The position numbers were made by a program, and so were the translations under genes. The notes below the pieces were generated by a model. The model saw only the letters and a program-made list of their open reading frames with translations. It did no database searches and was not told the DNA's origin. A DNA stretch of 64,000 nt from Thraustochytrium sp. TN22. Lineage: Eukaryota; Sar; Bigyra; Thraustochytrida; Thraustochytriidae. The stretch is taken from the NCBI GenBank assembly GCA_013306675.1, contig JABLUY010000128.1, positions 42,082 to 106,081 of the forward strand, written 5' to 3'. How positions within the stretch are numbered: position 1 is the stretch's first letter; each line of letters starts with the position of its first letter. This document shows, in pieces, positions 770-41,614 of the stretch.

Positions 770-976
770 GCGACGCATGTGCACTACTAACCTGGAGAAG
801 GAAGTCTTAGTAACTTAGTAGCTTATGGGTTGAATGTTGTTGACACGGGCAGGGAAGGAAGGCGTCGAGGTCGAGGAGGGAGGTGCATGCAGAAAAGGAC
901 AGCAGCTCACATCATGATCACGGTTCATCTTGTACCTCCAGTTCCTCCGCTACGCGAGCGGCTCCGACGGGTCCTT

Positions 977-3684: not shown

Positions 3685-3800
3685 TCACATGTCTTGGGGC
3701 TCCGAGCGTGATGAGTATAGTATTGTACTGTGGATTTTCAGGTGGTAGTTCAAATGTGAGTGGCGCGGCTTGCCTGTGGAGGAGGTGAAGCGGGATTCCG

Positions 3801-5279: not shown

Positions 5280-5628
5280 CACGATGATGATGATGGTGGG
5301 CACACAAGTGTCGGTTGCAACTTTTTCCCCTCGTCAGCCTGACTTACTCATCTCACTCACTGTCATCTCACAGTCAGTCAGAGTGGGGAGACAGACGATG
5401 AGCGAACAGTCTCGCGCGGCAAGCACACGGACCCAGAGAATGAATCGAGCAGAACAACACAAAAGTCTCTTTCTCTCTCTCTCTCTCGCTGTCTTTGACT
5501 CTAGGTTTACATACAAAAGTTGGCTGGGCTCGTGATGATGTTGGGTTGGTTCGCACGCAGCAGCAGCAGCAGGTGCAGGTGCAAGCGCATCTCTGGATGG
5601 GCACTTTTGCTCGCACTTGCAGCCAGGT
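5280..5628. other. Intergenic, pyrimidine-tract containing
   Basis: Lies between the 5' end of the TPR-like gene and the 3' end of the Wee1-like gene, both on the minus strand. It holds a CT-rich microsatellite (about 5465-5490) and a CAG/CAGGTG run near 5560. No gene is seen. Confidence 0.5.
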
Positions 5629-19114: not shown

Positions 19115-22100
19115 ATGGAAGCGGCGCGAGACAAGGCCCGCGCCGGCTTCGCCCGCGCTGTCGGCACCGGCCGGCGCCGCGGCCGCCCTGGCTCGGCGGC
19201 ACGGCATGGCGCACTCTGCCTCGCGGTACTTTGCAGCGCGCTCTTCGCATACGCACGGGCGGCGGCACCGGTGCTCGTGGACGCCGCGTTGGACGTCGGC
19301 ACGCGCGCGCTGACACTGGGCGTCTCCAGCGTCAACGTCGTTAGTGATGGCACCCTCGTAGCGCTTACGAGGTCAGATACCGCCGCTGTGCTGGCCATCC
19401 TCTCGGACATGACCTCCGTCACGGTCGATGCGGGCGCCGAAACCGTATCGGCGAGCTTGACACTCGCCCAGCAGTTCGCCGTGCAGCAGGCTCTCGACGC
19501 AGCCGCCTCGCTGGAGTTGACCGCGGGCGCATCGGCCTTTCAGAGTGCCGCGCTGGAGGGGAGCTCCTCCGCCACCGTCGCCGCCACTGTCACGCCCGAC
19601 TCACAGGCGCCCGCTTTGGTGCCTCCAGCAGCCCTGGATCTCAATACGGGTCAACTGATGCTCGTGTTCGACGAGTATGTTGACGCCAGCACGTGGAATG
19701 CTGCGCAGCTCACGCTCCAGTCGGGCGGCTTCTCTGGGGTCGCAACAGCTGCGACCCTCAGCGATGACGGCGATAACGAGCAGCTCGTCATGGCGCTTTC
19801 CGAGGCGACACGCGCCCAGCTGGCCGCACAAAATGCCGCGGCGAATCCTGTCACCTTGAGTCTCGCATCTTCCTTCATTCATGACTTCGAAGGCAACGCG
19901 AACACCGCTGCAACGGGTGCGGCTGTGACCGTGACGGCAGACACGACCCCACCGGCGCTGTCCAGCGCAACGCTCGACCTCAACACGGGTGTCGTACAGA
20001 TGGCATTCTCCGAATACGTCGACGTGTCCACGTGGAGCGCAGACGAGGTCTCATTCACACCGGCTGGCGGATCAGCGATTGCAGGCACGGGCTCTACACT
20101 CGATGACGACGGCGACAACGAAATCGTGGTCTTCACGCTGCCAGAGGCGACGCGGGCCGCGCTGAGCGCCGAGGACGCTGCGAGCAACGCCATCACGGTG
20201 ACTCTGTCGACCTCGTTCATCCAGGATTTCGGCAAGGTCGCGAACATCGCCGCTACAAGTGACCCCGTGACAGTGACGTCCGACTCGACCGCGCCGACGC
20301 TGTCCAGCGCGACGCTCGACCTCAACACGGGCACTGTGCAGCTCACCTTTTTGGAGTACGTTGACGTATCAACGTGGAGCGCAGACGAGGTCTCGTTCAC
20401 GGCTGCTGGCGGATCCGCGATTGCGGGCACGGGTTCCACGCTCGATGACGACGGCGACAATGAAATCGTTGTCTTCACGCTGCCAGAGGCGACGCGGGCC
20501 GCGCTAAGCGCCGAGGACGCCGCGAGCAACGCCATCACGGTGACTCTGTCGACCTCATTCATCCAGGACTTTGGCAAGGTCGCAAACGTCGCCGCTACAA
20601 GTGAAGCCGTGACAGTGACATCCGACGCGACGGCGCCGACGCTGTCCAGCGCGACGCTCGACCTCAACACGGGCACTGTGCAGCTCACCTTTTCGGAGTA
20701 CGTCGATGTGTCGACTTGGAGTGCCGACGAGGTCTCGTTCACGCCGGCTGGCGGATCAGCGACTGCGGGCACGGGCTCTACGCTCGATGACGACGGCGAG
20801 AATGAAATCGTTGTCTTCACGCTACCAGAGGCGACGCGGGCTGCGCTGAGCGCCGAGGACGCTGCGAGCAACGCCATCACGGTGACTCTGTCGACCTCAT
20901 TCATCCAGGATTTCGGCAAGGTCGCGAACATCGCCGCAACAAGTGACCCCGTGACAGTGACGTCCGACTCGACCGCGCCGACGTTGTCTAGCGCGACGCT
21001 CGACCTCAACACGGGCACTGTGCAGCTCACCTTTTTGGAGTACGTTGACGTATCAACGTGGAGCGCAGACGAGGTCTCGTTCACGGCTGCTGGCGGATCC
21101 GCGATTGCGGGCACGGGTTCCACGCTCGATGACGACGGCGACAATGAAATCGTTGTCTTCACGCTGCCAGAGGCGACGCGGGCCGCGCTAAGCGCCGAGG
21201 ACGCCGCGAGCAACGCCATCACGGTGACTCTGTCGACCTCATTCATCCAGGACTTTGGCAAGGTCGCAAACGTCGTCGCTACAAGTGACCCCGTGACAGT
21301 GGCGTCCGACGCGACCGCGCCGACGCTGTCTAGCGCGACGCTCGACCTCAACACGGGCACTGTGCAGCTCACCTTTTCTGAGTACGTCGATGTGTCCACC
21401 TGGAGCGCCGACGAGGTCTCGTTCACGCCGGCTGGCGGATCAGCGACTGCGGGCACGGGCTCTACGCTCGATGACGACGGCGAGAATGAAATCGTTGTCT
21501 TCACGCTACCAGAGGCGACGCGGGCTGCGCTGAGCGCCGAGGACGCTGCGAGCAACGCCATCACGGTGACTCTGTCGACCTCATTCATCCAGGATTTCGG
21601 CAAGGTCGCGAACATCGCCGCAACAAGTGACCCCGTGACAGTGACGTCCGACTCGACCGCGCCGACGTTGTCTAGCGCGACGCTCGACCTCAACACGGGC
21701 ACTGTGCAGCTCACCTTTTTGGAGTACGTTGACGTATCAACGTGGAGCGCAGACGAGGTCTCGTTCACGGCTGCTGGCGGATCCGCGATTGCGGGCACGG
21801 GTTCCACGCTCGATGACGACGGCGACAATGAAATCGTTGTCTTCACGCTGCCAGAGGCGACGCGGGCCGCGCTAAGCGCCGAGGACGCCGCGAGCAACGC
21901 CATCACGGTGACTCTGTCGACCTCATTCATCCAGGACTTTGGCAAGGTCGCAAACGTCGTCGCTACAAGTGACCCCGTGACAGTGGCGTCCGACGCGACC
22001 GCGCCGACGCTGTCTAGCGCGACGCTCGACCTCAACACGGGCACTGTGCAGCTCACCTTTTCTGAGTACGTCGATGTGTCCACCTGGAGCGCCGACGAGG

Positions 22101-25100
22101 TCTCGTTCACGCCGGCTGGCGGATCAGCGACTGCGGGCACGGGCTCTACGCTCGATGACGACGGCGAGAATGAAATCGTTGTCTTCACGCTACCAGAGGC
22201 GACGCGGGCTGCGCTGAGCGCCGAGGACGCTGCGAGCAACGCCATCACGGTGACTCTGTCGACCTCATTCATCCAGGATTTCGGCAAGGTCGCGAACATC
22301 GCCGCAACAAGTGACCCCGTGACAGTGACGTCCGACTCGACCGCGCCGACGTTGTCTAGCGCGACGCTCGACCTCAACACGGGCACTGTGCAGCTCACCT
22401 TTTTGGAGTACGTTGACGTATCAACGTGGAGCGCAGACGAGGTCTCGTTCACGGCTGCTGGCGGATCCGCGATTGCGGGCACGGGTTCCACGCTCGATGA
22501 CGACGGCGACAATGAAATCGTTGTCTTCACGCTGCCAGAGGCGACGCGGGCCGCGCTAAGCGCCGAGGACGCCGCGAGCAACGCCATCACGGTGACTCTG
22601 TCGACCTCATTCATCCAGGACTTTGGCAAGGTCGCAAACGTCGTCGCTACAAGTGACCCCGTGACAGTGGCGTCCGACGCGACCGCGCCGACGCTGTCTA
22701 GCGCGACGCTCGACCTCAACACGGGCACTGTGCAGCTCACCTTTTCTGAGTACGTCGATGTGTCCACCTGGAGCGCCGACGAGGTCTCGTTCACGCCGGC
22801 TGGCGGATCAGCGACTGCGGGCACGGGCTCTACGCTCGATGACGACGGCGAGAATGAAATCGTTGTCTTCACGCTACCAGAGGCGACGCGGGCTGCGCTG
22901 AGCGCCGAGGACGCTGCGAGCAACGCCATCACGGTGACTCTGTCGACCTCATTCATCCAGGATTTCGGCAAGGTCGCGAACATCGCCGCAACAAGTGACC
23001 CCGTGACAGTGACGTCCGACTCGACCGCGCCGACGTTGTCTAGCGCGACGCTCGACCTCAACACGGGCACTGTGCAGCTCACCTTTTTGGAGTACGTTGA
23101 CGTATCAACGTGGAGCGCAGACGAGGTCTCGTTCACGGCTGCTGGCGGATCCGCGATTGCGGGCACGGGTTCCACGCTCGATGACGACGGCGACAATGAA
23201 ATCGTTGTCTTCACGCTGCCAGAGGCGACGCGGGCCGCGCTAAGCGCCGAGGACGCCGCGAGCAACGCCATCACGGTGACTCTGTCGACCTCATTCATCC
23301 AGGACTTTGGCAAGGTCGCAAACGTCGTCGCTACAAGTGACCCCGTGACAGTGGCGTCCGACGCGACCGCGCCGACGCTGTCTAGCGCGACGCTCGACCT
23401 CAACACGGGCACTGTGCAGCTCACCTTTTCTGAGTACGTCGATGTGTCCACCTGGAGCGCCGACGAGGTCTCGTTCACGCCGGCTGGCGGATCAGCGACT
23501 GCGGGCACGGGCTCTACGCTCGATGACGACGGCGAGAATGAAATCGTTGTCTTCACGCTACCAGAGGCGACGCGGGCTGCGCTGAGCGCCGAGGACGCTG
23601 CGAGCAACGCCATCACGGTGACTCTGTCGACCTCATTCATCCAGGATTTCGGCAAGGTCGCGAACATCGCCGCAACAAGTGACCCCGTGACAGTGACGTC
23701 CGACTCGACCGCGCCGACGTTGTCTAGCGCGACGCTCGACCTCAACACGGGCACTGTGCAGCTCACCTTTTTGGAGTACGTTGACGTATCAACGTGGAGC
23801 GCAGACGAGGTCTCGTTCACGGCTGCTGGCGGATCCGCGATTGCGGGCACGGGTTCCACGCTCGATGACGACGGCGACAATGAAATCGTTGTCTTCACGC
23901 TGCCAGAGGCGACGCGGGCCGCGCTAAGCGCCGAGGACGCCGCGAGCAACGCCATCACGGTGACTCTGTCGACCTCATTCATCCAGGACTTTGGCAAGGT
24001 CGCAAACGTCGTCGCTACAAGTGACCCCGTGACAGTGGCGTCCGACGCGACCGCGCCGACGCTGTCTAGCGCGACGCTCGACCTCAACACGGGCACTGTG
24101 CAGCTCACCTTTTCTGAGTACGTCGATGTGTCCACCTGGAGCGCCGACGAGGTCTCGTTCACGCCGGCTGGCGGATCAGCGACTGCGGGCACGGGCTCTA
24201 CGCTCGATGACGACGGCGAGAATGAAATCGTTGTCTTCACGCTACCAGAGGCGACGCGGGCTGCGCTGAGCGCCGAGGACGCTGCGAGCAACGCCATCAC
24301 GGTGACTCTGTCGACCTCATTCATCCAGGATTTCGGCAAGGTCGCGAACATCGCCGCAACAAGTGACCCCGTGACAGTGACGTCCGACTCGACCGCGCCG
24401 ACGTTGTCTAGCGCGACGCTCGACCTCAACACGGGCACTGTGCAGCTCACCTTTTTGGAGTACGTTGACGTATCAACGTGGAGCGCAGACGAGGTCTCGT
24501 TCACGGCTGCTGGCGGATCCGCGATTGCGGGCACGGGTTCCACGCTCGATGACGACGGCGACAATGAAATCGTTGTCTTCACGCTGCCAGAGGCGACGCG
24601 GGCCGCGCTAAGCGCCGAGGACGCCGCGAGCAACGCCATCACGGTGACTCTGTCGACCTCATTCATCCAGGACTTTGGCAAGGTCGCAAACGTCGTCGCT
24701 ACAAGTGACCCCGTGACAGTGGCGTCCGACGCGACCGCGCCGACGCTGTCTAGCGCGACGCTCGACCTCAACACGGGCACTGTGCAGCTCACCTTTTCTG
24801 AGTACGTCGATGTGTCCACCTGGAGCGCCGACGAGGTCTCGTTCACGCCGGCTGGCGGATCAGCGACTGCGGGCACGGGCTCTACGCTCGATGACGACGG
24901 CGAGAATGAAATCGTTGTCTTCACGCTACCAGAGGCGACGCGGGCTGCGCTGAGCGCCGAGGACGCTGCGAGCAACGCCATCACGGTGACTCTGTCGACC
25001 TCATTCATCCAGGATTTCGGCAAGGTCGCGAACATCGCCGCAACAAGTGACCCCGTGACAGTGACGTCCGACTCGACCGCGCCGACGTTGTCTAGCGCGA

Positions 25101-28100
25101 CGCTCGACCTCAACACGGGCACTGTGCAGCTCACCTTTTTGGAGTACGTTGACGTATCAACGTGGAGCGCAGACGAGGTCTCGTTCACGGCTGCTGGCGG
25201 ATCCGCGATTGCGGGCACGGGTTCCACGCTCGATGACGACGGCGACAATGAAATCGTTGTCTTCACGCTGCCAGAGGCGACGCGGGCCGCGCTAAGCGCC
25301 GAGGACGCCGCGAGCAACGCCATCACGGTGACTCTGTCGACCTCATTCATCCAGGACTTTGGCAAGGTCGCAAACGTCGTCGCTACAAGTGACCCCGTGA
25401 CAGTGGCGTCCGACGCGACCGCGCCGACGCTGTCTAGCGCGACGCTCGACCTCAACACGGGCACTGTGCAGCTCACCTTTTCTGAGTACGTCGATGTGTC
25501 CACCTGGAGCGCCGACGAGGTCTCGTTCACGCCGGCTGGCGGATCAGCGACTGCGGGCACGGGCTCTACGCTCGATGACGACGGCGAGAATGAAATCGTT
25601 GTCTTCACGCTACCAGAGGCGACGCGGGCTGCGCTGAGCGCCGAGGACGCTGCGAGCAACGCCATCACGGTGACTCTGTCGACCTCATTCATCCAGGATT
25701 TCGGCAAGGTCGCGAACATCGCCGCAACAAGTGACCCCGTGACAGTGACGTCCGACTCGACCGCGCCGACGTTGTCTAGCGCGACGCTCGACCTCAACAC
25801 GGGCACTGTGCAGCTCACCTTTTTGGAGTACGTTGACGTATCAACGTGGAGCGCAGACGAGGTCTCGTTCACGGCTGCTGGCGGATCCGCGATTGCGGGC
25901 ACGGGTTCCACGCTCGATGACGACGGCGACAATGAAATCGTTGTCTTCACGCTGCCAGAGGCGACGCGGGCCGCGCTAAGCGCCGAGGACGCCGCGAGCA
26001 ACGCCATCACGGTGACTCTGTCGACCTCATTCATCCAGGACTTTGGCAAGGTCGCAAACGTCGTCGCTACAAGTGACCCCGTGACAGTGGCGTCCGACGC
26101 GACCGCGCCGACGCTGTCTAGCGCGACGCTCGACCTCAACACGGGCACTGTGCAGCTCACCTTTTCTGAGTACGTCGATGTGTCCACCTGGAGCGCCGAC
26201 GAGGTCTCGTTCACGCCGGCTGGCGGATCAGCGACTGCGGGCACGGGCTCTACGCTCGATGACGACGGCGAGAATGAAATCGTTGTCTTCACGCTACCAG
26301 AGGCGACGCGGGCTGCGCTGAGCGCCGAGGACGCTGCGAGCAACGCCATCACGGTGACTCTGTCGACCTCATTCATCCAGGATTTCGGCAAGGTCGCGAA
26401 CATCGCCGCAACAAGTGACCCCGTGACAGTGACGTCCGACTCGACCGCGCCGACGTTGTCTAGCGCGACGCTCGACCTCAACACGGGCACTGTGCAGCTC
26501 ACCTTTTTGGAGTACGTTGACGTATCAACGTGGAGCGCAGACGAGGTCTCGTTCACGGCTGCTGGCGGATCCGCGATTGCGGGCACGGGTTCCACGCTCG
26601 ATGACGACGGCGACAATGAAATCGTTGTCTTCACGCTGCCAGAGGCGACGCGGGCCGCGCTAAGCGCCGAGGACGCCGCGAGCAACGCCATCACGGTGAC
26701 TCTGTCGACCTCATTCATCCAGGACTTTGGCAAGGTCGCAAACGTCGTCGCTACAAGTGACCCCGTGACAGTGGCGTCCGACGCGACCGCGCCGACGCTG
26801 TCTAGCGCGACGCTCGACCTCAACACGGGCACTGTGCAGCTCACCTTTTCTGAGTACGTCGATGTGTCCACCTGGAGCGCCGACGAGGTCTCGTTCACGC
26901 CGGCTGGCGGATCAGCGACTGCGGGCACGGGCTCTACGCTCGATGACGACGGCGAGAATGAAATCGTTGTCTTCACGCTACCAGAGGCGACGCGGGCCGC
27001 GCTGAGCGCCGAGGACGCTGCGAGCAACGCCATCACGGTGACTCTGTCGACCTCATTCATCCAGGAGTTCGGCAAGGTCGCGAACATCGCCGCAACAAGT
27101 GACCCCGTGACAGTGACGTCCGACTCGACCGCGCCGACGCTCTCAAGCGCGACGCTCGACCTCAACACGGGCACTGTGCAGCTCACCTTTTTGGAGTACG
27201 TTGACGTATCAACGTGGAGCGCAGACGAGGTCTCGTTCACGGCTGCTGGCGGATCCGCGATTGCGGGCACGGGTTCCACGCTCGATGACGACGGCGACAA
27301 TGAAATCGTTGTCTTCACGCTGCCAGAGGCGACGCGGGCCGCGCTAAGCGCCGAGGACGCCGCGAGCAACGCCATCACGGTGACTCTGTCGACCTCATTC
27401 ATCCAGGACTTTGGCAAGGTCGCAAACGTCGTCGCTACAAGTGACCCCGTGACAGTGGCGTCCGACGCGACCGCGCCGACGCTGTCTAGCGCGACGCTCG
27501 ACCTCAACACGGGCACTGTGCAGCTCACCTTTTCTGAGTACGTCGATGTGTCCACGTGGAGCGCCGACGAGGTCTCGTTCACGCCGGCTGGCGGATCAGC
27601 GACTGCGGGCACGGGCTCTACGCTCGATGACGACGGCGAGAATGAAATCGTTGTCTTCACGCTACCAGAGGCGACGCGTGCCGCGCTGAGCGCCGAGGAC
27701 GCTGCGAGCAACGCCATCACGGTGACTCTGTCGACCTCGTTCATCCAAGACTTCGGCAAGGTCGCAAACGTCGCCGCGACAAGTGAAGCCGTAGCAGTGA
27801 CGTCCGACGCGACCGCGCCGACGCTGTCTAGCGCGACGCTCGACCTCAACACGGGCACTGTGCAGCTCACCTTTTCTGAGTACGTCGATGTGTCAACGTG
27901 GAGCGCCGACGAGGTCTCGTTCACGCCGGCTGGCGGATCAGCGACTGCGGGCACGGGCTCTACGCTCGATGACGACGGCGAGAATGAAATCGTTGTCTTC
28001 ACGCTGCCAGAGGCGACGCGTGCCGCGCTGAGCGCCGAGGACGCTGCGAGCAACGCCATCACGGTGACTCTGTCGACCTCATTCATCCAGGATTTCGGCA

Positions 28101-34100: not shown

Positions 34101-37100
34101 ACTTCTCCGGGGAATCGCTCGCCGCGTCTGCGATCGGAGCAAGCTACGACTGGATCATTACACTTTCCCCAGAGCAGGAGGTTCACATTGCTCGGGAGAG
34201 CGTGAACGGCGGCGTCGGCATCGACGTTCTCGTCAGTGTCGGTGCTGCGCGCGACTACGGCGGGAATTCTGTCACGGAACAAACCATCACGGTGAGCGTT
34301 ACCTCGGATCTGACTTTGCCCACTGCCCTGGCCGCCGCACTTGACCTGGGCACCATGGTTTTGGACCTGCATCTGTCGGAGTTTGCCGATCAGGTTGACC
34401 TTGCGCAGTTCTCAGCGAGGACGACGGCGCTGGGAAGCATTGCAAGTGTGTCGGACTGGACCTACAGCGGAAGCCTCACGCTCGCAATCGTCGACAATAC
34501 GCTCAAGGACGATCTCACGGATACCTACCTCGCCGGCGATCCGCTCACATACAGTCTCGGCAGCGGCGCTGTTACCGATGTGGTGGGAAACGTCATCCTC
34601 GCGACCGGGGACGTCGTTTTTAGCTCTGTGGCACCAGATACCGTGCTGCCCCAAGTGGCACGCGTCGCGGTGGATCTCGGCCTGAAGCTGGTCACGCTAG
34701 ACTTTGATGAAACCGTGCTCAACCTGCAGTGGGGCCTCGTGAACCTGGAAGACAGCGACGCGAGCCAGAGCACTGGCCTGCAGGCCGAGACGTCCTCGGT
34801 GCGCAGCACGCAGCACGTACTCACGATGACCGAAGAGGTCCACCTGGCAGCCAGCCTCATCTCCCCGTCCGTCGCGGCTGTTTCGCTTCAGCAGGCCAGC
34901 TTTCAGGATGTCTCCGGCAACCCCAACGCACTGGATAGTGCGCACCCCGTTGACGCCCTTACGCTGGACGCTGTGCCCCCGGCAGTATTGTCGGGTTCGC
35001 TCGCGCTGCATCTGGGAACAGGTACGCTCACGTTCCAGCTCACGGAGCACATTGAGGTGGCCACGGTGGACCTCCTAAAAATGAGCATCATCGCGCAAGA
35101 CAGTAGCACGTCGTGCGCGCTCGGTGTCGAGAGCTTCCTGGTAACCTCCGACCAGTACAGCACGGCACTCGAGGTCACCATTGACACAGACTGCCGCGTC
35201 TTCGCAGTGCTTGCTGACAAGGGCGGCAGCGCGCTTGCTCTTGGCGTTCAGGCGGACGCCTTTCGAGACGCGAGCAACAACGCTGCCCTCGAGCACGAAG
35301 AGACCATCGACGCCATCACCCTGGACACGATCCTGCCCGAGATCACGCGCGTGGAGCTCGACCTCGACGCCGAGATCCTGACCGTCGTGCTGAGCGAGCC
35401 GATTAACTTGGCACGCATCAACACCTTCGGCGCGCTCAGTGGGGCGCTCGTCATCGGCACGGAAGAGCAGCACAGCATTGGCTTCCTCATGGACGGGGAC
35501 GCGGCGGGCAATCGCGCAGACTACGCCGCAATCGTGCAGCTGCCCATCCTCGAGGACGCTCGCCGCGACATGAACGTCGCGGCTCGCAGCGCCGTGTCCT
35601 TCGAGCTGCATTACACGGATAGCTCACAGCTCATCCTGGACGCTGCCGACAACGCGGTTCTGAGCGCCGGACAGGCCTTTGCGATGGCCTCATTGACGCT
35701 CGACGTGACGCCACCAAACCTCCTGGACGTGACCGTGGAGATCAAAAACGGTCGGGTACAGCTCACGAGTCGCGAGACGCTCGAGCCGCTACTTCTTGAC
35801 CCCTCTCGCATTGTGGTCGAGAACAGCCTCACGCTGACCGCGGCGGAGTGCGAGGTCCAGGCGATCAATGAGCTCGCGGTGACGAACGAGTTCATCATGT
35901 CTGACGTCCAGATCGTGCAATACCTGCCATTTATGGATGACGCGAGCGACGTGCTCATCTCTGTGCTGCCCGGCGCTGTGGCGGACGTCATGGGCAACCA
36001 GAACACGGAGACCTTCGACTTTGTCGTCTCGCCAGACGCCACCTACTTTGAGCTGCGCGTCATGGCCGTCAGCTTCACGCAGATCGTGCGAGGTGCCACC
36101 AAGTCCTTCTACCTCATCGGCACTGGTCTCGGCTCGGGGCAGCTTGCCAAGTGGGTGAGTGGGTCAGACTGCTCTGCCCAAGGGGTCTCCGTGAACGGCG
36201 GTGGCGGCACTGAGGTAACGCTGCAGACAGCCGATGGGAATAGTGGGCCGTACAGAACCGTGGCGCAGAACCTCGTCATCGATGTAGAGTCTGACCCGGT
36301 CGACTATACGCTCTGCGTGGAGAGCGAGGCGTACCCAGCCCTCACGCTGCGCGTCTTCGCAGTGCAGGCTGTCACGCAGAGCGTAGGGGATGACGCACGA
36401 GTCGTGGTGGGCGTGGCCAAGACGCAAACCTTCGCTGGCGTGGGCGTGAGCCCGGGTGACCGCGTCAAGTGGGTCTCCAGCGCGGGCGAGTGCGATGAGT
36501 CCGCGACCGTGCCGCACCACGTGCCAAACTTGCCCTGGACGCTCGGCCCTTCGCTGCGTGCCACCGACTTGCAGATCGGCCCGCGAACGGACGGCGAGCT
36601 AGAGTCGGCACACTTGCTGCTCTGCTTCAAGTTCAACTCGGAGCCTTACTTTCCTTTTGAGGAGTTCACGATTGACGTGCATCGCATCACATCCATGGTG
36701 TCCACGGACCGTCTCGTCGCCACGCAGACCAAGCCACTGCAGTTCGACGGCCTCAACGTGGACGCGACGGCGGACCGCATCGTCTGGGTCGAGGCAAGTC
36801 AGGCCTTCAGTGACGCTGACTGCCTGAACGCAGACATCTACCTGCCCCTTGCGCCGGCGCCGCTCGTCGACCCCTATGATGGCGTGGAGGTATCCATTGC
36901 TAGCGCGCCGCTGCCGGAACGCTCCTACGCCTTGTGCTATGGCTTCCGCGACGAGGCTCTCCGCCTGTATCCGGACGTGGAGCTTCTCCCGTGTGAGGTC
37001 ATCGACTACGACGTGTCTGCCGGAAGCGAGCGCGTCGCGGTGCGAGACGTGCCCAAGATCTTCTACTTTCATGGGAGCGGCTTCGACCCGACGCAGGACC

Positions 37101-40100
37101 GCATAATGTGGACGCCAGACGCGCAGGATGCAACCGCTTGCGCCGAGTACCCGGGGGTCATTACAAGCTCAAGCGCGGGCGCGGACTACAGCACGGGCTA
37201 CGGTGCGCTTACCTTTGACGCGACCGTGAACCTCGTTTACCTGTGTTACGGCTTCGGCTTCGCAGAGCCCTGGCAGGTGTATCCGGACGTCCACCTGCAG
37301 GTGCGCGCGGTGAATGGCGCAAGCCTCACGCGCACCGTGGCGGGCTTGGCACCGCCGGAGAACGTCACCTTGGACGGCTTTGGCCTGTATGCTGATGACC
37401 GTGTCAAATACGTGCCGCAAGTCTCGGGTCTGGATGCCAGTCAGCTATGCGCGCAGCAACAGACGAGCGGGGCGACGCAGACGCTCCGCGTCGGGCCTGT
37501 GAGCCTGGGCGCCGTGGTAGCCATGCCGTTCACCTCGCTTGCGAGCGCTTCTTCGCCTCTGCTGCTCTGCTACGCACACGAGATCGAGCCTTTTGCACTC
37601 TACGCGAGCATCGCCATGGAGGTGGACGGCATCTTGGCCTTCTCCCGCACGGAGTTCGTCGAGGGCCTTGCCTACACGATCTCCTTTGACGCAATGGGGC
37701 TGGAAGAGGGCGACCTGGTGCGCTTCGTGTACTTTGGAGGCGATAATACCGCCACCGCTTCCTCTTTCTCTGACGCCGACTGCGCGATGGCGGCAGTCGC
37801 CTACGAGGTCGAGGTAGCGGACCCAGTCAACGTGCAGACACTCACCTTTCCGCAGCGCACGCCAACGGACGAGCAGCGACACCCGGTCTGTGTGCAGTTC
37901 CGTCGCGCGATGGACGCGACCCGCTTTCGAGCGTACGCCTTCGACGTGCGCGCGATAGGCATCGAGTCGGTGAATCTCACCGACGTGGTGGTCGGCGAGC
38001 GTGCCGTCTTCGCGTTCGAGGGCACGGGCATTCAGGAGGGCGACCTCGTCAAATGGGTCTCTAGCGCTGACGTGAGCGACCACGGCGACTGCGACAACGC
38101 CAACAGCTTGCTGGCTGCCCTAGACGGCGAGCCCATGGGACCCGACCGCACCTTTTCAACGACCTTCCAGGAGGGTACGTCGCGTGCTGTCCTCTGTTAT
38201 CGCTTCCAAGACCACGATCGGTACCGACTGTACGACAATATTGCCATCGTTGTGAATGCAGTGCGCTCCATGAGCCCCGCGCACGCAGTCGTTGGGTCGC
38301 CGCAGACCCTGACGTTCGACCTCGCCAAGGTACGCAGCGGTGATGAGCTACGCTTCGTGGCGATGAATGCAAGCTCCTGCGAGGACGAGGACGCGAGCGA
38401 AGAAGGGGCGAACGACCTGGTGGCCTCGGCGACCTATGAGGTGGAGCAGGTGGTCTGCGACCAGCCCTCAAGCGCCGCTAGGGGGCTCCGCGCGCCATGG
38501 ACAAACAAGTGCGCCCAGGCTGTAGTGACCTTTGCGGCGGCGCCGGCGGTCGGAGACGCCTTTGCACTCTGCTACCGTTTCGCAAAAGAGGACCACTTTT
38601 CCTTCTTTCCGGATTTAGCCGTGCGTGTCGTGGAACCTGCCATTTCGAGCCAGGAAACGTCCTTCTTCGTGTCTGCGCAGAGCAAGACGGTGCAGCTGAC
38701 GGGTACCTTTGGCATCACCCAGGGAGACCGCTACAAGTTCATTGCTCCAGGAGAGACCTCGTGCGATAGCCTCAAGGCGACCACGGAACGCGCCGTGCCA
38801 GCCACGTCGCTCGATGCCGATGGCGACCTCAATCTAGGCACGGCGACTGTGCCGGTGCAGATCGACATTGGAAGCGTCGATGATGCGGACCTGCTCCGGC
38901 AGCGGCCCTATCGTCTGTGCTACAGATTCGGCACGCGCGGGCCCATGTTGCTCTTCAAGGAGCGCGCGCTCACTGGGCTCAAGCTGACCAAGGTCCTTCT
39001 GGCCACGCGGCCTGACAGCGTCGTGGCAGGCGCCCAGGTTGTCTTTGAATTTCATGGCGTGGGCGTCGCCGACGGTGACAGCGCCAAGTGGGTGAACCCC
39101 GGCGCGGACTGCTCCGCGGAAGGCGCGGCAGGGTCTGAGGATGGCATCGTCGAGGAGCAGCGGGCTACCTTCGTCTTTGACTCCAGCATAAGCAGCATGC
39201 TCCTGTGCTACAAGTTCCAGGGCGAGCCATTCACGGCCTACCCGTCCCTTCCATTGGGCCGTGTCGCCTATGCGGACATGGTTTCAGATCGGAGCTTGGA
39301 GGAAGACGCCACAAGCGCTGTGGACGCGGACGGAGACACGGAGTCGTCCGATGCGGAGGCAGTCGCGAGCAAGCTGCTCGAGGAGCAGGCCGTCATGGAC
39401 TCGAAGCTGCAGGATGAGGCGCAGCTGGTCATTTCACTCGATGTAGACTTTGCCACGGTCCTGCCCGGGTCCGCGGGGGAGGCGGAGTTTTTGACGAACT
39501 TCACTTCTGACCTGAGTGGCGCACTCCGGGTTCCGGAGGCGCGTATCCGCATTGTGGGCCTGTCTCGCGGGTCCGTGATTGTGAAGTTCATCATCTTGCC
39601 GCCCCTATCGAGCGAGGACAGCCTACCGGCTGAGACGGCGGCCTCGATCCTCGTCAAGAAGATCAGCGACCCAACCAGCGATGTGTACACGCAGACTTCC
39701 GTACTGGGCAAGGTCAAACAAGACGTTGCTGTCGAGGTGGTGGTGCTACCGAATGCCGACGCGGTGGCGCGCGCCGGGGAGACCGCGACGGCACAGCTCG
39801 AGCAGCAGCAAGCCGAGCTCTCCATCGCCAGCTACCAGGCGAGCGGCCTGATCCTCTTCCACGACGCCGTCAAGGTGGTTGTTGAGGGCTATGATGACTA
39901 CGTGGATTTGACGGTGCTGCGCGAGCACGGCACGAGCGGGGTTCTACCCGTGCACTACGCGACACGCGACGGAACGGCCGTTGCTGCTGCGCACTACACG
40001 CAGACGTCCGGTGTCCTGCGCTTCCAGGACGGCGAGCGCGAGAAAACGATCCGCGTGCCCATCTTGCGCGACGAGTCGGTCGGTCCTGCCTTTCGCTGGT

Positions 40101-41614
40101 TCGTGGTGGACCTCAGCTTCTCGCGCACGCCGGTGGACGCGCAGCTCGGAACGCGGCGGACTGGGCTTGTGAAAATATTCGACTACGGTGACGGCGAGAG
40201 CGTGGTGAGCGACGTCTTTGCGCTGGAGACTGGCTCGAGCCGCGAGACGGCCGGTTGGTCGGTGTCTGGTAATGGCCTTGGCAACGAGAGCGCGTGGGTC
40301 GACGTCCATGGGCTCTATAGCGTGGACCAGGTGGTGGCAAGCGAGGAGTACAACGAGCGATGCGACACGGCGAGCACGGTGGGACCGTGCACGTACTCGT
40401 GCGAGTACGGCGGCAGCTATGCGCTGAGCTCGGGACGGGACGATGGCGTCCTGGAGCTAGGGGGCGGGCCGCTCTCCTACGCGGCGTCGACCACTGCTTG
40501 GGACCTTTCCATCACAGCGACGTTCACAATTTCGCTATGGATCAAGGTGGCCGGGCAGGCGACTGGCCTGGAGACCCTTGTCTCGTACCAGGTAGCGGGC
40601 CAGCCCGGTCTGAGCGAGATCGCGCTCGTGAACGCTCGCGACCTTACGCTCGTGGTGCACGGCCGTTTGGATGCCGCGCGTGTCTCTGGAGAGCGCTCTG
40701 GCGTGGACGTGAGCGATGGGGCGTGGCACTTCGTGGCGGTCTCGTGGAACGCCGCTGGCGGCGAGGTCTTCGTCTACCACAATGGCGTGTTGGCGTATGA
40801 GGGCGGACCGCTGCGCGCGGACTATTCGATCGTGGGTGGTGGCGCCTGGGTTGTGGGCCAGGCTCAGGGCGGGAATCTATGCTTCGTGGGCGGGCCCGCG
40901 GAGTCCTGCTCCGGCTGGGTCGCAGGCCGTGATTTGCGTGGAGCGGTGCAGAACCTGCGCGTGTGGAACCAGGTGCGCGGCCTCAAGCAGGTGCAAGCCG
41001 GGATGCGCTGGCCATTCACTGCGTACCAGGGCAAGCTGCGGCTGTACTGGCGCTTCCGTGCAGAGGACGCCGAGGCGCGTCAGGCGGCGAACATCGCCTT
41101 GGCGGGTGTCGACCACGATGCAGTGGTGGGCATTGGTGCGACGATTGGGGACGGCGCGCCGTCTGCGCACCCGGACTACCCGTGCGGGCGCGTCCACAGC
41201 AACCTCTTTTACTTTGAGGCGCCGGACCGATACCGCGGCGACCTGACGCAGGTCTACAACGGTCGACTGCAGTTTGAGCTGTTCGCGCCGAGCCAGCACG
41301 GCTCCATGCGCGCGTCGCGCGGTTCCGTCGTGCTTGAGGGCGCTGGGTTGACGCTGTCCAACAGTCTGCTCGGCTTTCCGCTATCCACGCGCACCGCCGG
41401 TCGCCGCGGCTTCTCCGTGGTCCTGCAAGAGTCGCAAGGTTGGCTCCTCGAACCGTCGGGCGCGCAAGCATCCTTTGATGACTTTTGGGCGGTGCTCTCC
41501 AATGTTACTCGCCTCGGCATACGCGGAGATCTCATGGTGTATTCGACACAGGGCTCTGGTCAGGAGACCACCTACCTAAACAGCGTGGCTCTCCACCGTG
41601 CACCTACGAGCTGA
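19115..41614 (+). CDS. Giant secreted repeat protein with laminin-B, LamG-like and Calx-beta modules
   Basis: About 7,499 residues in one uninterrupted frame, starting at the ATG in GGCCATGG context. Residues 31-51 are a hydrophobic leader (LCLAVLCSALFAYARAAA), so it is secreted or a signal-anchored surface protein. Residues about 160-5645 are about 48 Ig-like repeats of about 114 residues. Each starts D-x-TAPTL, continues DLNTGTVQLTFSEYVD and has a DDDGDNE loop; the form resembles SbsA/SwmB-type Ig-like domains. Residues about 5646-6725 are ten repeats with G.GV..GD..KWV....C and LCY.F cores. A SEA-like segment (about 6768-6882), a Calx-beta domain (about 6905-7030) and a LamG/pentraxin-like domain (about 7080-7340, TISLWIKV and DGAWHFVAVSW) follow. 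The end is a laminin-B/domain IV match (YFEAPDRYRGDL, VLSNVTRLGIRG). No second membrane helix is seen. An adhesin or matrix role is inferred from domains. Repeat copy number may be mis-assembled. Confidence 0.9.
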   Translation: MEAARDKARAGFARAVGTGRRRGRPGSAARHGALCLAVLCSALFAYARAAAPVLVDAALDVGTRALTLGVSSVNVVSDGTLVALTRSDTAAVLAILSDMTSVTVDAGAETVSASLTLAQQFAVQQALDAAASLELTAGASAFQSAALEGSSSATVAATVTPDSQAPALVPPAALDLNTGQLMLVFDEYVDASTWNAAQLTLQSGGFSGVATAATLSDDGDNEQLVMALSEATRAQLAAQNAAANPVTLSLASSFIHDFEGNANTAATGAAVTVTADTTPPALSSATLDLNTGVVQMAFSEYVDVSTWSADEVSFTPAGGSAIAGTGSTLDDDGDNEIVVFTLPEATRAALSAEDAASNAITVTLSTSFIQDFGKVANIAATSDPVTVTSDSTAPTLSSATLDLNTGTVQLTFLEYVDVSTWSADEVSFTAAGGSAIAGTGSTLDDDGDNEIVVFTLPEATRAALSAEDAASNAITVTLSTSFIQDFGKVANVAATSEAVTVTSDATAPTLSSATLDLNTGTVQLTFSEYVDVSTWSADEVSFTPAGGSATAGTGSTLDDDGENEIVVFTLPEATRAALSAEDAASNAITVTLSTSFIQDFGKVANIAATSDPVTVTSDSTAPTLSSATLDLNTGTVQLTFLEYVDVSTWSADEVSFTAAGGSAIAGTGSTLDDDGDNEIVVFTLPEATRAALSAEDAASNAITVTLSTSFIQDFGKVANVVATSDPVTVASDATAPTLSSATLDLNTGTVQLTFSEYVDVSTWSADEVSFTPAGGSATAGTGSTLDDDGENEIVVFTLPEATRAALSAEDAASNAITVTLSTSFIQDFGKVANIAATSDPVTVTSDSTAPTLSSATLDLNTGTVQLTFLEYVDVSTWSADEVSFTAAGGSAIAGTGSTLDDDGDNEIVVFTLPEATRAALSAEDAASNAITVTLSTSFIQDFGKVANVVATSDPVTVASDATAPTLSSATLDLNTGTVQLTFSEYVDVSTWSADEVSFTPAGGSATAGTGSTLDDDGENEIVVFTLPEATRAALSAEDAASNAITVTLSTSFIQDFGKVANIAATSDPVTVTSDSTAPTLSSATLDLNTGTVQLTFLEYVDVSTWSADEVSFTAAGGSAIAGTGSTLDDDGDNEIVVFTLPEATRAALSAEDAASNAITVTLSTSFIQDFGKVANVVATSDPVTVASDATAPTLSSATLDLNTGTVQLTFSEYVDVSTWSADEVSFTPAGGSATAGTGSTLDDDGENEIVVFTLPEATRAALSAEDAASNAITVTLSTSFIQDFGKVANIAATSDPVTVTSDSTAPTLSSATLDLNTGTVQLTFLEYVDVSTWSADEVSFTAAGGSAIAGTGSTLDDDGDNEIVVFTLPEATRAALSAEDAASNAITVTLSTSFIQDFGKVANVVATSDPVTVASDATAPTLSSATLDLNTGTVQLTFSEYVDVSTWSADEVSFTPAGGSATAGTGSTLDDDGENEIVVFTLPEATRAALSAEDAASNAITVTLSTSFIQDFGKVANIAATSDPVTVTSDSTAPTLSSATLDLNTGTVQLTFLEYVDVSTWSADEVSFTAAGGSAIAGTGSTLDDDGDNEIVVFTLPEATRAALSAEDAASNAITVTLSTSFIQDFGKVANVVATSDPVTVASDATAPTLSSATLDLNTGTVQLTFSEYVDVSTWSADEVSFTPAGGSATAGTGSTLDDDGENEIVVFTLPEATRAALSAEDAASNAITVTLSTSFIQDFGKVANIAATSDPVTVTSDSTAPTLSSATLDLNTGTVQLTFLEYVDVSTWSADEVSFTAAGGSAIAGTGSTLDDDGDNEIVVFTLPEATRAALSAEDAASNAITVTLSTSFIQDFGKVANVVATSDPVTVASDATAPTLSSATLDLNTGTVQLTFSEYVDVSTWSADEVSFTPAGGSATAGTGSTLDDDGENEIVVFTLPEATRAALSAEDAASNAITVTLSTSFIQDFGKVANIAATSDPVTVTSDSTAPTLSSATLDLNTGTVQLTFLEYVDVSTWSADEVSFTAAGGSAIAGTGSTLDDDGDNEIVVFTLPEATRAALSAEDAASNAITVTLSTSFIQDFGKVANVVATSDPVTVASDATAPTLSSATLDLNTGTVQLTFSEYVDVSTWSADEVSFTPAGGSATAGTGSTLDDDGENEIVVFTLPEATRAALSAEDAASNAITVTLSTSFIQDFGKVANIAATSDPVTVTSDSTAPTLSSATLDLNTGTVQLTFLEYVDVSTWSADEVSFTAAGGSAIAGTGSTLDDDGDNEIVVFTLPEATRAALSAEDAASNAITVTLSTSFIQDFGKVANVVATSDPVTVASDATAPTLSSATLDLNTGTVQLTFSEYVDVSTWSADEVSFTPAGGSATAGTGSTLDDDGENEIVVFTLPEATRAALSAEDAASNAITVTLSTSFIQDFGKVANIAATSDPVTVTSDSTAPTLSSATLDLNTGTVQLTFLEYVDVSTWSADEVSFTAAGGSAIAGTGSTLDDDGDNEIVVFTLPEATRAALSAEDAASNAITVTLSTSFIQDFGKVANVVATSDPVTVASDATAPTLSSATLDLNTGTVQLTFSEYVDVSTWSADEVSFTPAGGSATAGTGSTLDDDGENEIVVFTLPEATRAALSAEDAASNAITVTLSTSFIQEFGKVANIAATSDPVTVTSDSTAPTLSSATLDLNTGTVQLTFLEYVDVSTWSADEVSFTAAGGSAIAGTGSTLDDDGDNEIVVFTLPEATRAALSAEDAASNAITVTLSTSFIQDFGKVANVVATSDPVTVASDATAPTLSSATLDLNTGTVQLTFSEYVDVSTWSADEVSFTPAGGSATAGTGSTLDDDGENEIVVFTLPEATRAALSAEDAASNAITVTLSTSFIQDFGKVANVAATSEAVAVTSDATAPTLSSATLDLNTGTVQLTFSEYVDVSTWSADEVSFTPAGGSATAGTGSTLDDDGENEIVVFTLPEATRAALSAEDAASNAITVTLSTSFIQDFGKVANIAATSDPVTVTSDSTAPTLSSATLDLNTGTVQLTFLEYVDVSTWSADEVSFTAAGGSAIAGTGSTLDDDGDNEIVVFTLPEATRAALSAEDAASNAITVTLSTSFIQDFGKVANVAATSESVTVTSDATAPTLSSATLDLNTGTVQLIFSEYVDSTSWVPSQVSFTPAGGSAIVGSSSSLSDDTNDAMVIFVLDEAARAQLSAEDAASKTITLTLTSTFIQDFGNVANDPTTGAAVAVTSDTTSPSLVAATLDLNDGTVQLTFSEYVDSTSWDPSQASLMPAGGSPIVGSSSLLVDDSDDAVIIFILPEATRSELSAEDAAGKTITIDLTTSFVKDYGAVANAAAGATLIITSDVTSPALSTAVLDLNDGSVQLTFSEYVDASTWDASKVSFASTGGLALAATGSTLNDDGDNTVLIFTLPEAARAQLSAHDAANEAITIAAATSFIQDFGSVPNTALADLSVLVTSDTSSPVLSSATLNLNDGTVRLTFGEYVDATTWDASQVFFTPEDGSAIAATGSTLADDGDNAILIFTLQEAVRSQLSAEDAAAKTIAVSLATPFIQDFGGVANAAVITTVAVTSDGTRPTLSAASLDLNDGTVQLTFSEYVNVGAWDASQVSLAPSGGSPVSVADAVLADGAENEIVVFILPESTRAQLSAQDAASKAIAINLPASAIEDFGTQPSLSASSFAMTLTSDSTPPTLLSAALDLNDGTVQLTFDEYVDSTTWNASQASFTPAGGSAIATTLSTLADDVDNDVLIFVLPEATRAQLSAEDTAGNAITITLTPAFVQDFGDVANAAATDAALVVTPDATSPMLLSATLDLNDGSVQLTFDEYVDSTTWDASQASFTPAGGSAIAATLSTLADDAHDEVLIFVLPEATRAQLSAEDAAGSTITITLTTGFVQDFGDVANAAATEAALTITPDTTPPALLSATLNLNDGTVQLTFDEYVDATTWDPSQAFFTPAGGSAIAATLSTLADDGDNDILTFILPEATRAQLSAEDAAGNTLTLSLTAAFVQDFGDVDIAAANNAAIAVTSDSTPPTLLSATLDLNDGTVQLAFDEYVDTTTWDASQASFTPEGGSTVAAALSTLAIDGDNDIIIFVLPEVTRALLSAEDAAGIAITITLTSAFVQDYGDVSNAAAPDAALTVTSDTVPPTLLDAALDLNDGTVQLTFSEYVDSTTWDPSQASFTPEGGSAISATLSTLADDADDEILVFVLPESARAQLSAEDAAGGIIAITLTTAFVQDFGDVANTAATNTALTVTSDTTPPALLDAALDLNDGTVHLAFSEYVDSTTWDASQVSFTPTGGSAVAATLSTLADDGDNNVLVFILPEATRALLSAEDAASRGITLTLTTAFIQDFGDVPNAAASDAVVTVTSDSMPPALLSATLDLNDGIVQLVFSEYVDLTTWDASRASFTPEGGSAIVATLSTLADDVDNDVLIFVLPEATRAQLSAEDAAGKTITITLTTAFVQDFGDVANTAATNAALTVTSDTTPPALLDAALDLNDGTVHLAFSEYVDSTTWDASQVSFTPTGGSAVAATLSTLADDGDNNVLVFILPEATRALLSAEDAASRDITLTLTTAFIQDFGDVPNAAASDAVVTVTSDSMPPALLSATLDLNDGIVQLVFSEYVDAATLDASQVSFTSSGGSVLPATGSTLADDGTNDVLIFTLPEATRSQLSAEDAASNVIAVSLTNSAIQDFGKVLNDQEPGLSVAVTSDTTAPRLASATLDLNDGTLVLTFTEFVLPSLWDAALLSLSTNTLTSEGTTLALQATATAIEVTFLLPEEARSIFAADAEAGLSVAVDLTAAFLPDAAGNPSLANIIYATLTLDTTQPSLLSAALDLNDGMLVLTFSEYVDETSWDAQDLVITCDGHSTAGSTPELVSAARSEVISLVLEEADRSALAEAALSSAASLAIMAGFIADSAANPSLPSAQALPATLDTTSAVLAGATLDLSSRQLVLTYDEFLRSATDNLLLVELSVTNDTIGPINLGSDFSGESLAASAIGASYDWIITLSPEQEVHIARESVNGGVGIDVLVSVGAARDYGGNSVTEQTITVSVTSDLTLPTALAAALDLGTMVLDLHLSEFADQVDLAQFSARTTALGSIASVSDWTYSGSLTLAIVDNTLKDDLTDTYLAGDPLTYSLGSGAVTDVVGNVILATGDVVFSSVAPDTVLPQVARVAVDLGLKLVTLDFDETVLNLQWGLVNLEDSDASQSTGLQAETSSVRSTQHVLTMTEEVHLAASLISPSVAAVSLQQASFQDVSGNPNALDSAHPVDALTLDAVPPAVLSGSLALHLGTGTLTFQLTEHIEVATVDLLKMSIIAQDSSTSCALGVESFLVTSDQYSTALEVTIDTDCRVFAVLADKGGSALALGVQADAFRDASNNAALEHEETIDAITLDTILPEITRVELDLDAEILTVVLSEPINLARINTFGALSGALVIGTEEQHSIGFLMDGDAAGNRADYAAIVQLPILEDARRDMNVAARSAVSFELHYTDSSQLILDAADNAVLSAGQAFAMASLTLDVTPPNLLDVTVEIKNGRVQLTSRETLEPLLLDPSRIVVENSLTLTAAECEVQAINELAVTNEFIMSDVQIVQYLPFMDDASDVLISVLPGAVADVMGNQNTETFDFVVSPDATYFELRVMAVSFTQIVRGATKSFYLIGTGLGSGQLAKWVSGSDCSAQGVSVNGGGGTEVTLQTADGNSGPYRTVAQNLVIDVESDPVDYTLCVESEAYPALTLRVFAVQAVTQSVGDDARVVVGVAKTQTFAGVGVSPGDRVKWVSSAGECDESATVPHHVPNLPWTLGPSLRATDLQIGPRTDGELESAHLLLCFKFNSEPYFPFEEFTIDVHRITSMVSTDRLVATQTKPLQFDGLNVDATADRIVWVEASQAFSDADCLNADIYLPLAPAPLVDPYDGVEVSIASAPLPERSYALCYGFRDEALRLYPDVELLPCEVIDYDVSAGSERVAVRDVPKIFYFHGSGFDPTQDRIMWTPDAQDATACAEYPGVITSSSAGADYSTGYGALTFDATVNLVYLCYGFGFAEPWQVYPDVHLQVRAVNGASLTRTVAGLAPPENVTLDGFGLYADDRVKYVPQVSGLDASQLCAQQQTSGATQTLRVGPVSLGAVVAMPFTSLASASSPLLLCYAHEIEPFALYASIAMEVDGILAFSRTEFVEGLAYTISFDAMGLEEGDLVRFVYFGGDNTATASSFSDADCAMAAVAYEVEVADPVNVQTLTFPQRTPTDEQRHPVCVQFRRAMDATRFRAYAFDVRAIGIESVNLTDVVVGERAVFAFEGTGIQEGDLVKWVSSADVSDHGDCDNANSLLAALDGEPMGPDRTFSTTFQEGTSRAVLCYRFQDHDRYRLYDNIAIVVNAVRSMSPAHAVVGSPQTLTFDLAKVRSGDELRFVAMNASSCEDEDASEEGANDLVASATYEVEQVVCDQPSSAARGLRAPWTNKCAQAVVTFAAAPAVGDAFALCYRFAKEDHFSFFPDLAVRVVEPAISSQETSFFVSAQSKTVQLTGTFGITQGDRYKFIAPGETSCDSLKATTERAVPATSLDADGDLNLGTATVPVQIDIGSVDDADLLRQRPYRLCYRFGTRGPMLLFKERALTGLKLTKVLLATRPDSVVAGAQVVFEFHGVGVADGDSAKWVNPGADCSAEGAAGSEDGIVEEQRATFVFDSSISSMLLCYKFQGEPFTAYPSLPLGRVAYADMVSDRSLEEDATSAVDADGDTESSDAEAVASKLLEEQAVMDSKLQDEAQLVISLDVDFATVLPGSAGEAEFLTNFTSDLSGALRVPEARIRIVGLSRGSVIVKFIILPPLSSEDSLPAETAASILVKKISDPTSDVYTQTSVLGKVKQDVAVEVVVLPNADAVARAGETATAQLEQQQAELSIASYQASGLILFHDAVKVVVEGYDDYVDLTVLREHGTSGVLPVHYATRDGTAVAAAHYTQTSGVLRFQDGEREKTIRVPILRDESVGPAFRWFVVDLSFSRTPVDAQLGTRRTGLVKIFDYGDGESVVSDVFALETGSSRETAGWSVSGNGLGNESAWVDVHGLYSVDQVVASEEYNERCDTASTVGPCTYSCEYGGSYALSSGRDDGVLELGGGPLSYAASTTAWDLSITATFTISLWIKVAGQATGLETLVSYQVAGQPGLSEIALVNARDLTLVVHGRLDAARVSGERSGVDVSDGAWHFVAVSWNAAGGEVFVYHNGVLAYEGGPLRADYSIVGGGAWVVGQAQGGNLCFVGGPAESCSGWVAGRDLRGAVQNLRVWNQVRGLKQVQAGMRWPFTAYQGKLRLYWRFRAEDAEARQAANIALAGVDHDAVVGIGATIGDGAPSAHPDYPCGRVHSNLFYFEAPDRYRGDLTQVYNGRLQFELFAPSQHGSMRASRGSVVLEGAGLTLSNSLLGFPLSTRTAGRRGFSVVLQESQGWLLEPSGAQASFDDFWAVLSNVTRLGIRGDLMVYSTQGSGQETTYLNSVALHRAPTS
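19600..20281 (+). repeat. First two Ig-like repeat units, diverged
   Basis: Two units of about 341 bp (DLNTGQLMLVFDEYVD and DLNTGVVQMAFSEYVD) that precede the homogenised array. A still more degenerate unit may precede them within residues 50-160. Confidence 0.7.
20282..28489 (+). repeat. 24 tandem 342-bp coding repeats without indels
   Basis: 8,208 bp is exactly 24 x 342 bp. Anchor codons (GAC of the D-x-TAP motif) recur every 342 bp from 20282 to 28490. Each unit encodes one Ig-like domain. Units differ by a few codon positions (FLEYVD/FSEYVD, AIAG/ATAG, GDNE/GENE, VANV/VANI). Confidence 0.95.
20981..27820 (+). repeat. 684-bp higher-order repeat (two domains per unit), about ten copies
   Basis: The marker ACG at the start of an ACGTTGTCTAGC sequence recurs at 20981, 21665, 22349, 23033, 23717, 24401, 25085, 25769 and 26453, with a variant at 27137. 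Lines compared 3,420 bp (five units) apart are base-for-base identical. The first differences I find are in the later copies, for example CGGGCTGC to CGGGCCGC near 26996 and GATTTC to GAGTTC (Asp to Glu) near 27067. Confidence 0.93.
28490..33274 (+). repeat. 14 diverged Ig-like repeat units
   Basis: Same domain at about 342-bp spacing, but with DLNDGTVQLTF and individually distinct sequences (DSTTWDASQASF, DFGDVANAA). It is followed by about eight strongly degenerate units to about 36050, for example DLTLP..LAAALDLG and DVTPPNLLDVTVEI. Confidence 0.85.
31830..33009 (+). repeat. Local 684-bp duplication inside the diverged repeat section
   Basis: Positions 31830-32325 are nearly identical to 32514-33009; for example GGCCAATACCGCAGC occurs at 31861 and 32545. 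The offset is exactly 684 bp, i.e. two domains, matching the higher-order period of the central array. Confidence 0.85.
36061..39250 (+). repeat. Ten Cys-containing repeat domains within the giant protein
   Basis: About 105-residue repeats. Each has a valine-rich first strand, an F.G.G motif, then GD..KWV or GDR.K(Y/F)(V/I), then a cysteine. Each closes with (L/V)CYxF about 55 residues later, then YPxxxL. Example cores are GVGVSPGDRVKWV, GTGIQEGDLVKWV and GVGVADGDSAKWV. The paired Cys in each unit suggests one disulfide per domain. The fold could be IPT/TIG-like; I cannot assign a family. Confidence 0.7.

Follow-up and report, generated by a model that had tools for sequence, protein, structure and literature searches.

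The window analysed here, a 64,000-nucleotide stretch of contig JABLUY010000128.1 from the thraustochytrid Thraustochytrium sp. TN22, belongs to a 37.9-Mb assembly of 453 contigs (GCA_013306675.1) and carries a giant gene. In the open-frame listing this gene is one uninterrupted frame of 22.5 kb and 7,499 codons, which agrees with the original prediction of a single frame of about 7,500 codons with a hydrophobic leader; the log10 probability of meeting no stop over this length is about -83 under the base composition of the window. The start codon lies in the context GCCATGG, and the predicted protein has a mass of 772 kDa, an isoelectric point (pI) of 4.05, 35 cysteines and 8 NxS/T sites in all. 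Hydropathy exceeds 1.6 in the leader (residues 32-55) and in two weaker internal windows (4905 and 6813). No C-terminal anchor is visible, the last 660 residues being free of any such window. The Pfam scan covered residues 1-2000, 3001-5000 and 5001-7499, the part left out (2001-3000) lying inside a near-identical array, and revealed no bacterial secretion or anchoring domain. The giant is apparently a secreted protein of a single-celled eukaryote. Intronless, as used of its gene, means a single open frame that starts with the leader and has recognised domains as far as its opposite end.

Table 1. Features of the giant gene (positions in the window)
Feature	Position	Strand	Details
Giant open frame	19115..41614	+	ATG at 19115, stop ending at 41614; 7,499 residues plus stop; in-frame GTG upstream at 18968
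Leader	19115..19261	+	Arg-rich start and hydrophobic core; cleavage near residue 49 (ARA/AAP) placed by eye; from hydropathy only
Rod	19265..36049	+	49 Ig-like units, residues 51-5645, mostly 114 residues each, acidic; from unit delimitation and a model of two units
Eight consecutive two-unit (A+B) repeats of 684 bp, inside the rod	20969..26440	+	identical base for base; followed by a ninth A unit at 26441-26782
Ten Cys repeats	36050..39265	+	residues 5646-6717; about 100-125 residues each; KWV..C...LCY pattern, at least 2 Cys each
Acidic segment	39266..39829	+	proposed as SEA-like; SEA identity not confirmed
Calx-beta (PF03160)	39857..40147	+	E 5e-14; 52.8 bits, cut-off 27
Laminin_G_3 (PF13385)	40499..40993	+	E 3.2e-10; 40.8 bits, cut-off 27.6
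Laminin_B (PF00052)	41210..41602	+	E 3.5e-14; 53.2 bits, cut-off 22.4; ends 3 residues before the stop

Most of the chain is a rod of immunoglobulin-like (Ig-like) units, of which we counted 49, close to the 48 or so proposed at the outset. They range from 111 to 126 residues, the borders of the first and last five having been set by hand. Protein identity between neighbours is 90-96% for units 3 to 27 and 16-45% over the last eight steps. The eight tandem 684-bp copies show zero base differences and are flanked by divergent units. Their A and B units differ from each other at 28 bases, 20 of them at third codon positions, and at 8 residues; such mostly third-position changes are as expected for a protein under constraint. 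The picture is that of a tandem array recently expanded or homogenised under protein-level constraint, or else of an error of copy number in the assembly. A 2,963-codon frame on the minus strand (19879-28770), antisense to the array, was considered as a gene and rejected. It most probably arises from the 342-bp unit together with the high GC content, since the unit length is a multiple of three and a frame once open stays open across the copies.

The rod is strongly acidic, with 13.8% D+E versus 1.9% K+R, and contains 4 cysteines in the 5,482 residues from 164 to 5645. When 20 of the 49 units were aligned, E24, D95 and D114 were invariant in all 20. Structure prediction, which the original prediction had called for, gave a confident model of two units (pLDDT 93) with an Ig-type beta sandwich and one helix of 12 residues in the modelled 114-residue unit. 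The assignment of an Ig-like fold to the units rests mainly on this model. A Foldseek search placed FMG1B of Chlamydomonas at rank 3 (9gos, E 5.6e-7), and the other matches shown were almost all antibodies; the unit profile found no relative among the sequences of solved structures in the PDB, FMG1B included. Since the structural neighbours are mostly antibodies and FMG1B escapes the unit profile, the structural match indicates an Ig-like fold and little more. Among Pfam families, Big_5 (PF13205) matched 11 of 20 single units at E <= 0.1 (best 7e-4). Its whole-protein value of 5.2e-18, which no stretch reaches significance alone to support, has to be discounted because summing over repeats also favours unrelated families; indeed, the YbjM and pyridoxine phosphate synthase families obtain repeat-summed values of about 1e-7 to 1e-6 in the giant.

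The rod is followed by ten cysteine (Cys) repeats, the number originally proposed. Eight of them carry two cysteines, one carries three and one four, and the cysteine of the LCY motif is aligned in all ten. Pfam offered no convincing family for them (best E 0.017, from one member), and nothing matched among plasmids. A model of one repeat reached middling confidence (pLDDT 63.7), and a fold search with it gave no match at E <= 0.001. Judged from its sequence, the region appears unclassified, with no known family found. The adjoining acidic segment had been proposed as SEA-like, which could not be confirmed: it has no meaningful Pfam match, with no SEA at E <= 5 and FAZ1_cons as the best (E 0.024, below the cut-off) in a search where the HMMER filters drop most weak matches, and it has no match among PDB sequences at E <= 5.

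The C-terminal head is composed of Calx-beta, Laminin_G_3 and Laminin_B domains, each with one stretch that is significant alone; these are the only Pfam families at E <= 0.1 in residues 5001-7499, and Laminin_B also scored 59.2 bits in a profile search of the own genome. The Calx-beta and laminin domain IV assignments made from the bare sequence therefore hold. The LamG-like domain is also significant, but its family is the broad concanavalin-A-like PF13385, which has matches in three bacterial genomes and one archaeal genome out of 14 controls. Profile searching for Laminin_B and LamG, the check set in advance, thus returned both, and the prediction survived it. What did not survive is the notion of an animal matrix-type cap, as Laminin_B occurs in six bacterial phyla and Laminin_G_3 in prokaryotes, and proteins of phages share 40% identity with the Calx-beta stretch. 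Furthermore, no EGF-like, LN, coiled-coil or animal LG module accompanies domain IV in residues 1-2000 and 3001-7499, so that the giant does not qualify as a laminin protein. Two RGD motifs (residues 7374 and 7470) were considered as integrin-binding signals and set aside as weak evidence, both following the pattern of the Laminin_B domain itself: the second also reads RGD in three bacterial copies (L019, L020 and L025), and the first has RGD as its counterpart in perlecan, the bacterial copies reading LGD or LGN there.

The bacterial distribution of Laminin_B was examined by scanning a contig collection with a sequence signature of the domain, which yielded 16 stretches. Frames from 10 of these were then scanned with Pfam, and all ten carry Laminin_B over the cut-off. 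According to record titles and tree labels, they represent six phyla: Planctomycetota (four), Chloroflexota (two), and Verrucomicrobiota, Gemmatimonadota, Cyanobacteria and Pseudomonadota (one each). Ig-like or cadherin-like families exceed the cut-off in three of these frames (L021, L028 and L031). The planctomycete frame L029 4561-6381 contains two Laminin_B domains, with Ig-like and dockerin matches under the cut-off. Another stretch (L018) sits in a 63-codon frame, and its genome was negative by profile. The Laminin_B profile was positive in 8 of 9 genomes chosen from the pattern-found set; in an even draw from Planctomycetota, the phylum of genome G001, 5 of 149 genomes were positive including G001 itself, that is 4 of 148 others, with 0 of 14 controls. 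Laminin_B is sporadic in bacteria, yet spread over several phyla.

Among solved structures, the relatives of Laminin_B are the basement-membrane proteins perlecan and laminin alpha-2, which score 18.3 and 13.2 bits against the copy of the giant. Pairwise profile scores were obtained for 14 pattern-found bacterial copies (without L018 and L027) and for five found by profile alone, three further profile loci being excluded as repeats of genes already included. Of the pattern-found copies, 13 score above perlecan, the best being one from Chloroflexota (52.1 bits); of the profile-only copies, three lie above (21.6, 34.6 and 27.0 bits) and two below (11.2 and 6.9), giving 16 of 19 in total. The best identity to a bacterial copy is 35%. 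In a tree, the two animal sequences split from the rest at 99/97, and 12 of 15 inner branches are open, including the one that places the giant; the tree covers two animal families only and carries long-branch warnings, one of them joining the giant with perlecan. By these scores, the Laminin_B of the giant is no nearer to these two animal copies than to most of the bacterial ones.

Laminin_B occurs in two genes of the own genome, the giant and a 371-codon frame (L002 853-1968, G000:C44) with a leader-like start, Big_9 over the cut-off and Laminin_B. Protein searches of this genome, which score the best candidates only and may miss distant paralogues, found the giant gene alone with the Cys repeats and with part of the rod, and itself plus one Calx-beta-like match with the stretch from the SEA-like segment to Calx-beta. 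Likewise, profiles of the Ig unit and the Cys repeat and the sequences of the Cys repeats and SEA-like segment detected only the giant itself (L051) among 798 frames of at least 150 codons from L002, L004 and L018-L069, the largest frames being covered in part. Laminin_G_3 has 14 matches in the genome, many in frames of 3,000-12,321 codons, and giant single frames are not rare there. A family of paralogous LamG giants was nevertheless rejected as far as the frames were read: the five scanned are other genes, with EF-hand and a sub-threshold TRP match, BEACH, 7tm_3, Sel1 and TIG repeats, respectively, and four more (C63, C439, C38 and C133) were viewed by eye in pieces only. The 12,321-codon frame (G000:C90, L066, 52001-62000) shows TIG/IPT at a repeat-summed E of 9.5e-59 and Laminin_G_3 at 2.4e-22 in the 3,055 codons examined, and is a second giant single-frame gene, possibly extracellular. 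The 7tm_3 frame, of 1,506 codons (L064 3616-8133, G000:C224), combines this receptor domain with ephrin-receptor-like repeats and two Laminin_G_3 domains.

Neighbouring frames in the window encode domains of eukaryotic kind (Ysc84 with SH3 and WW, a protein kinase and an EH domain), as well as a threonyl-tRNA synthetase, a papain-type protease and two MFS transporters. These domains lie whole or nearly whole in one piece, which makes the claim of an intron-poor eukaryote reasonable. The transporter frames stand in tandem downstream of the giant (44808-46238 and 46895-48307, plus strand). Two adjacent minus-strand frames (59013-60920 and 61493-63598) share the same Exostosin_GT47 match, under the cut-off in both, and a 99-bp tandem repeat occupies 63188-63485.

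We infer from this architecture that the giant may be an adhesin or matrix fibre, and our tentative preference is for a secreted extender fibre of about 200 nm that ends in a C-terminal binding head and works in the style of bacterial giant Ig-rod adhesins. The leader would direct the chain into the secretory pathway, and the 49 units, if all fold like the two modelled, would form a rod of 196-233 nm at 4-4.75 nm each. The upper value comes from the solved bacterial RII tetra-tandemer, whose four repeats measure about 190 Å (PMC4083281), and the length of some 200 nm originally proposed appears reasonable. Such a rod would keep the head, with its Calx-beta, lectin-like LamG_3 and Laminin_B domains, off the cell, where their types suggest binding of a glycan or surface partner. 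E24, D95 and D114 may lie near the unit junctions, as judged from the strand order of the model and not from inspected coordinates; calcium bound there could stiffen the rod as in bacterial RII repeats. The Cys repeats could act as a disulphide-stabilised collar between rod and head, and unequal exchange among the identical 684-bp repeats could alter the rod length. As no membrane anchor is visible, the molecule would be released or held by a partner. The extender fibre is supported by the single frame with a leader, the confident two-unit model and the significant head domains, by identical tandem dimers with diverging flanks, as in MpAFP-like extender adhesins, and by the low pI, acidic rod, invariant acidic columns and third-position bias between A and B units.

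A protective cell or flagellar coat, in which packed Ig-like chains form a glycocalyx limiting unwanted adhesion, is suggested by the Foldseek match to FMG1B. According to PMC12021028, FMG1B comprises 34 Ig-like units of 109.6 +/- 10.9 residues with one short helix each, near the 114 residues and single helix found here, plus a Cys-rich domain, and adhesion rises when it is lost together with its isoform. The same paper, however, describes a conserved disulphide per unit, a C-terminal membrane domain and 25 confirmed N-glycan sites, against a nearly cysteine-free rod, an end without hydrophobic stretch and 8 NxS/T sites in the giant; with the unit profile missing FMG1B and antibodies filling the remaining Foldseek matches, we consider a coat unlikely. 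We give about as little credence to a structural role in a wall, scale layer or matrix of the cell, in which the Cys repeats would provide the cross-links and long-range adhesion would play no part. It agrees with the lack of an anchor, the ten Cys repeats and the basement-membrane location of perlecan and laminin alpha-2, but the domain is bacterial too and does not by itself imply a matrix, and the EGF-like, LN and coiled-coil modules are missing from the scanned parts.

Two further explanations are compatible with these functional readings. That lateral transfer from a bacterial surface protein gave rise to the gene or only to its head would fit the occurrence of the head domains in bacteria or phages, the higher score of Laminin_B with the Chloroflexota copy than with perlecan, and the restriction of the Cys-repeat and part-rod matches to the giant gene within the own genome. 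On the other hand, bacterial identity peaks at 35%, two of the five profile-only copies score below perlecan, the Cys repeats match nothing in plasmids, and neither three Laminin_B-based scans of the collection nor tblastn in plasmids and phages confirmed a relative; the place of the giant in the tree is among the open branches, and the eukaryotic sequences compared came from two animal families and the own genome. We regard such a transfer as improbable. That the number of identical repeats is an assembly artefact, the true rod being shorter or longer, is suggested by eight copies without one base difference and seems very unlikely: the diverged units flanking the array stay in frame, a genuine adhesin has an identical array as well (PMC4083281), and an error of length would leave the architecture unchanged.

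Collectively, these data describe a real and striking protein, for which the earlier interpretation is partly supported. The premise behind its most extraordinary look, the animal-type cap, does not hold. Because several bacterial phyla and this protist carry Laminin_B, the domain is no mark of animal matrix, and finding it in a unicellular organism should not be taken as a step towards such a matrix. For the human proteome, Laminin_B is listed as confined to proteins of the extracellular matrix (PMC4224354, table 1), and laminin-related genes are reported from choanoflagellates, Capsaspora, Dictyostelium and Thecamonas (PMC5395295). Among the open-licence titles listed for Laminin_B outside animals or in thraustochytrids and for giant protist adhesins, none dealt with this gene or with Laminin_B in bacteria. 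The giant shows in a eukaryote the kind of rod known chiefly from giant adhesins of bacteria, and its repeat array looks as if it were still growing. A bolder view, which we regard as doubtful, is that a calcium-stiffened, recently expanding Ig rod, with a Laminin_B tip and a collar from a new Cys-repeat family, arose in a eukaryote independently of the bacterial ones. Laminin_B would then be an old surface-binding module of bacteria and protists, and its use in animal basement membranes would be one that came late.

Compared with known systems, the giant is a variant of the known giant Ig-rod surface proteins, with an unclassified Cys-repeat region. Its module shared with perlecan and laminin alpha-2 is domain IV, but in the regions scanned it lacks their EGF-like, LN and coiled-coil parts. 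Bacterial Laminin_B frames such as those of Aquisphaera insulae (L028) and a Verrucomicrobia metagenome-assembled genome (L021) are likewise long and join Ig-like or cadherin-like repeats to Laminin_B, yet with other Ig families, another domain order and no close sequence match, and the Cys-repeat profile finds nothing there. With FMG1B it shares a giant eukaryotic chain, Ig-like units of about 110 residues with one helix each and a Cys-rich part; it differs in its near-identical rather than diverged repeats and its Calx-beta/LamG_3/Laminin_B head, and the absence of the per-unit disulphide and membrane anchor sets it outside the FMG1 family, although it could act in a similar way. The likeness to region II of MpAFP and to bacterial extender adhesins lies in long near-identical arrays of Ig-like units of about 104-114 residues, in acidic residues at the unit junctions (in the giant, probably near them) and in binding domains set apart from the rod. 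MpAFP itself has about 120 identical, calcium-dependent 104-residue repeats, stiffened by calcium between them, that keep a binding domain off the cell (PMC4083281). In contrast to such adhesins, the giant is a eukaryotic gene product with an endoplasmic-reticulum-type leader, a different head, units without a solved sequence relative and, in the residues scanned with Pfam, no domain for bacterial secretion or anchoring.
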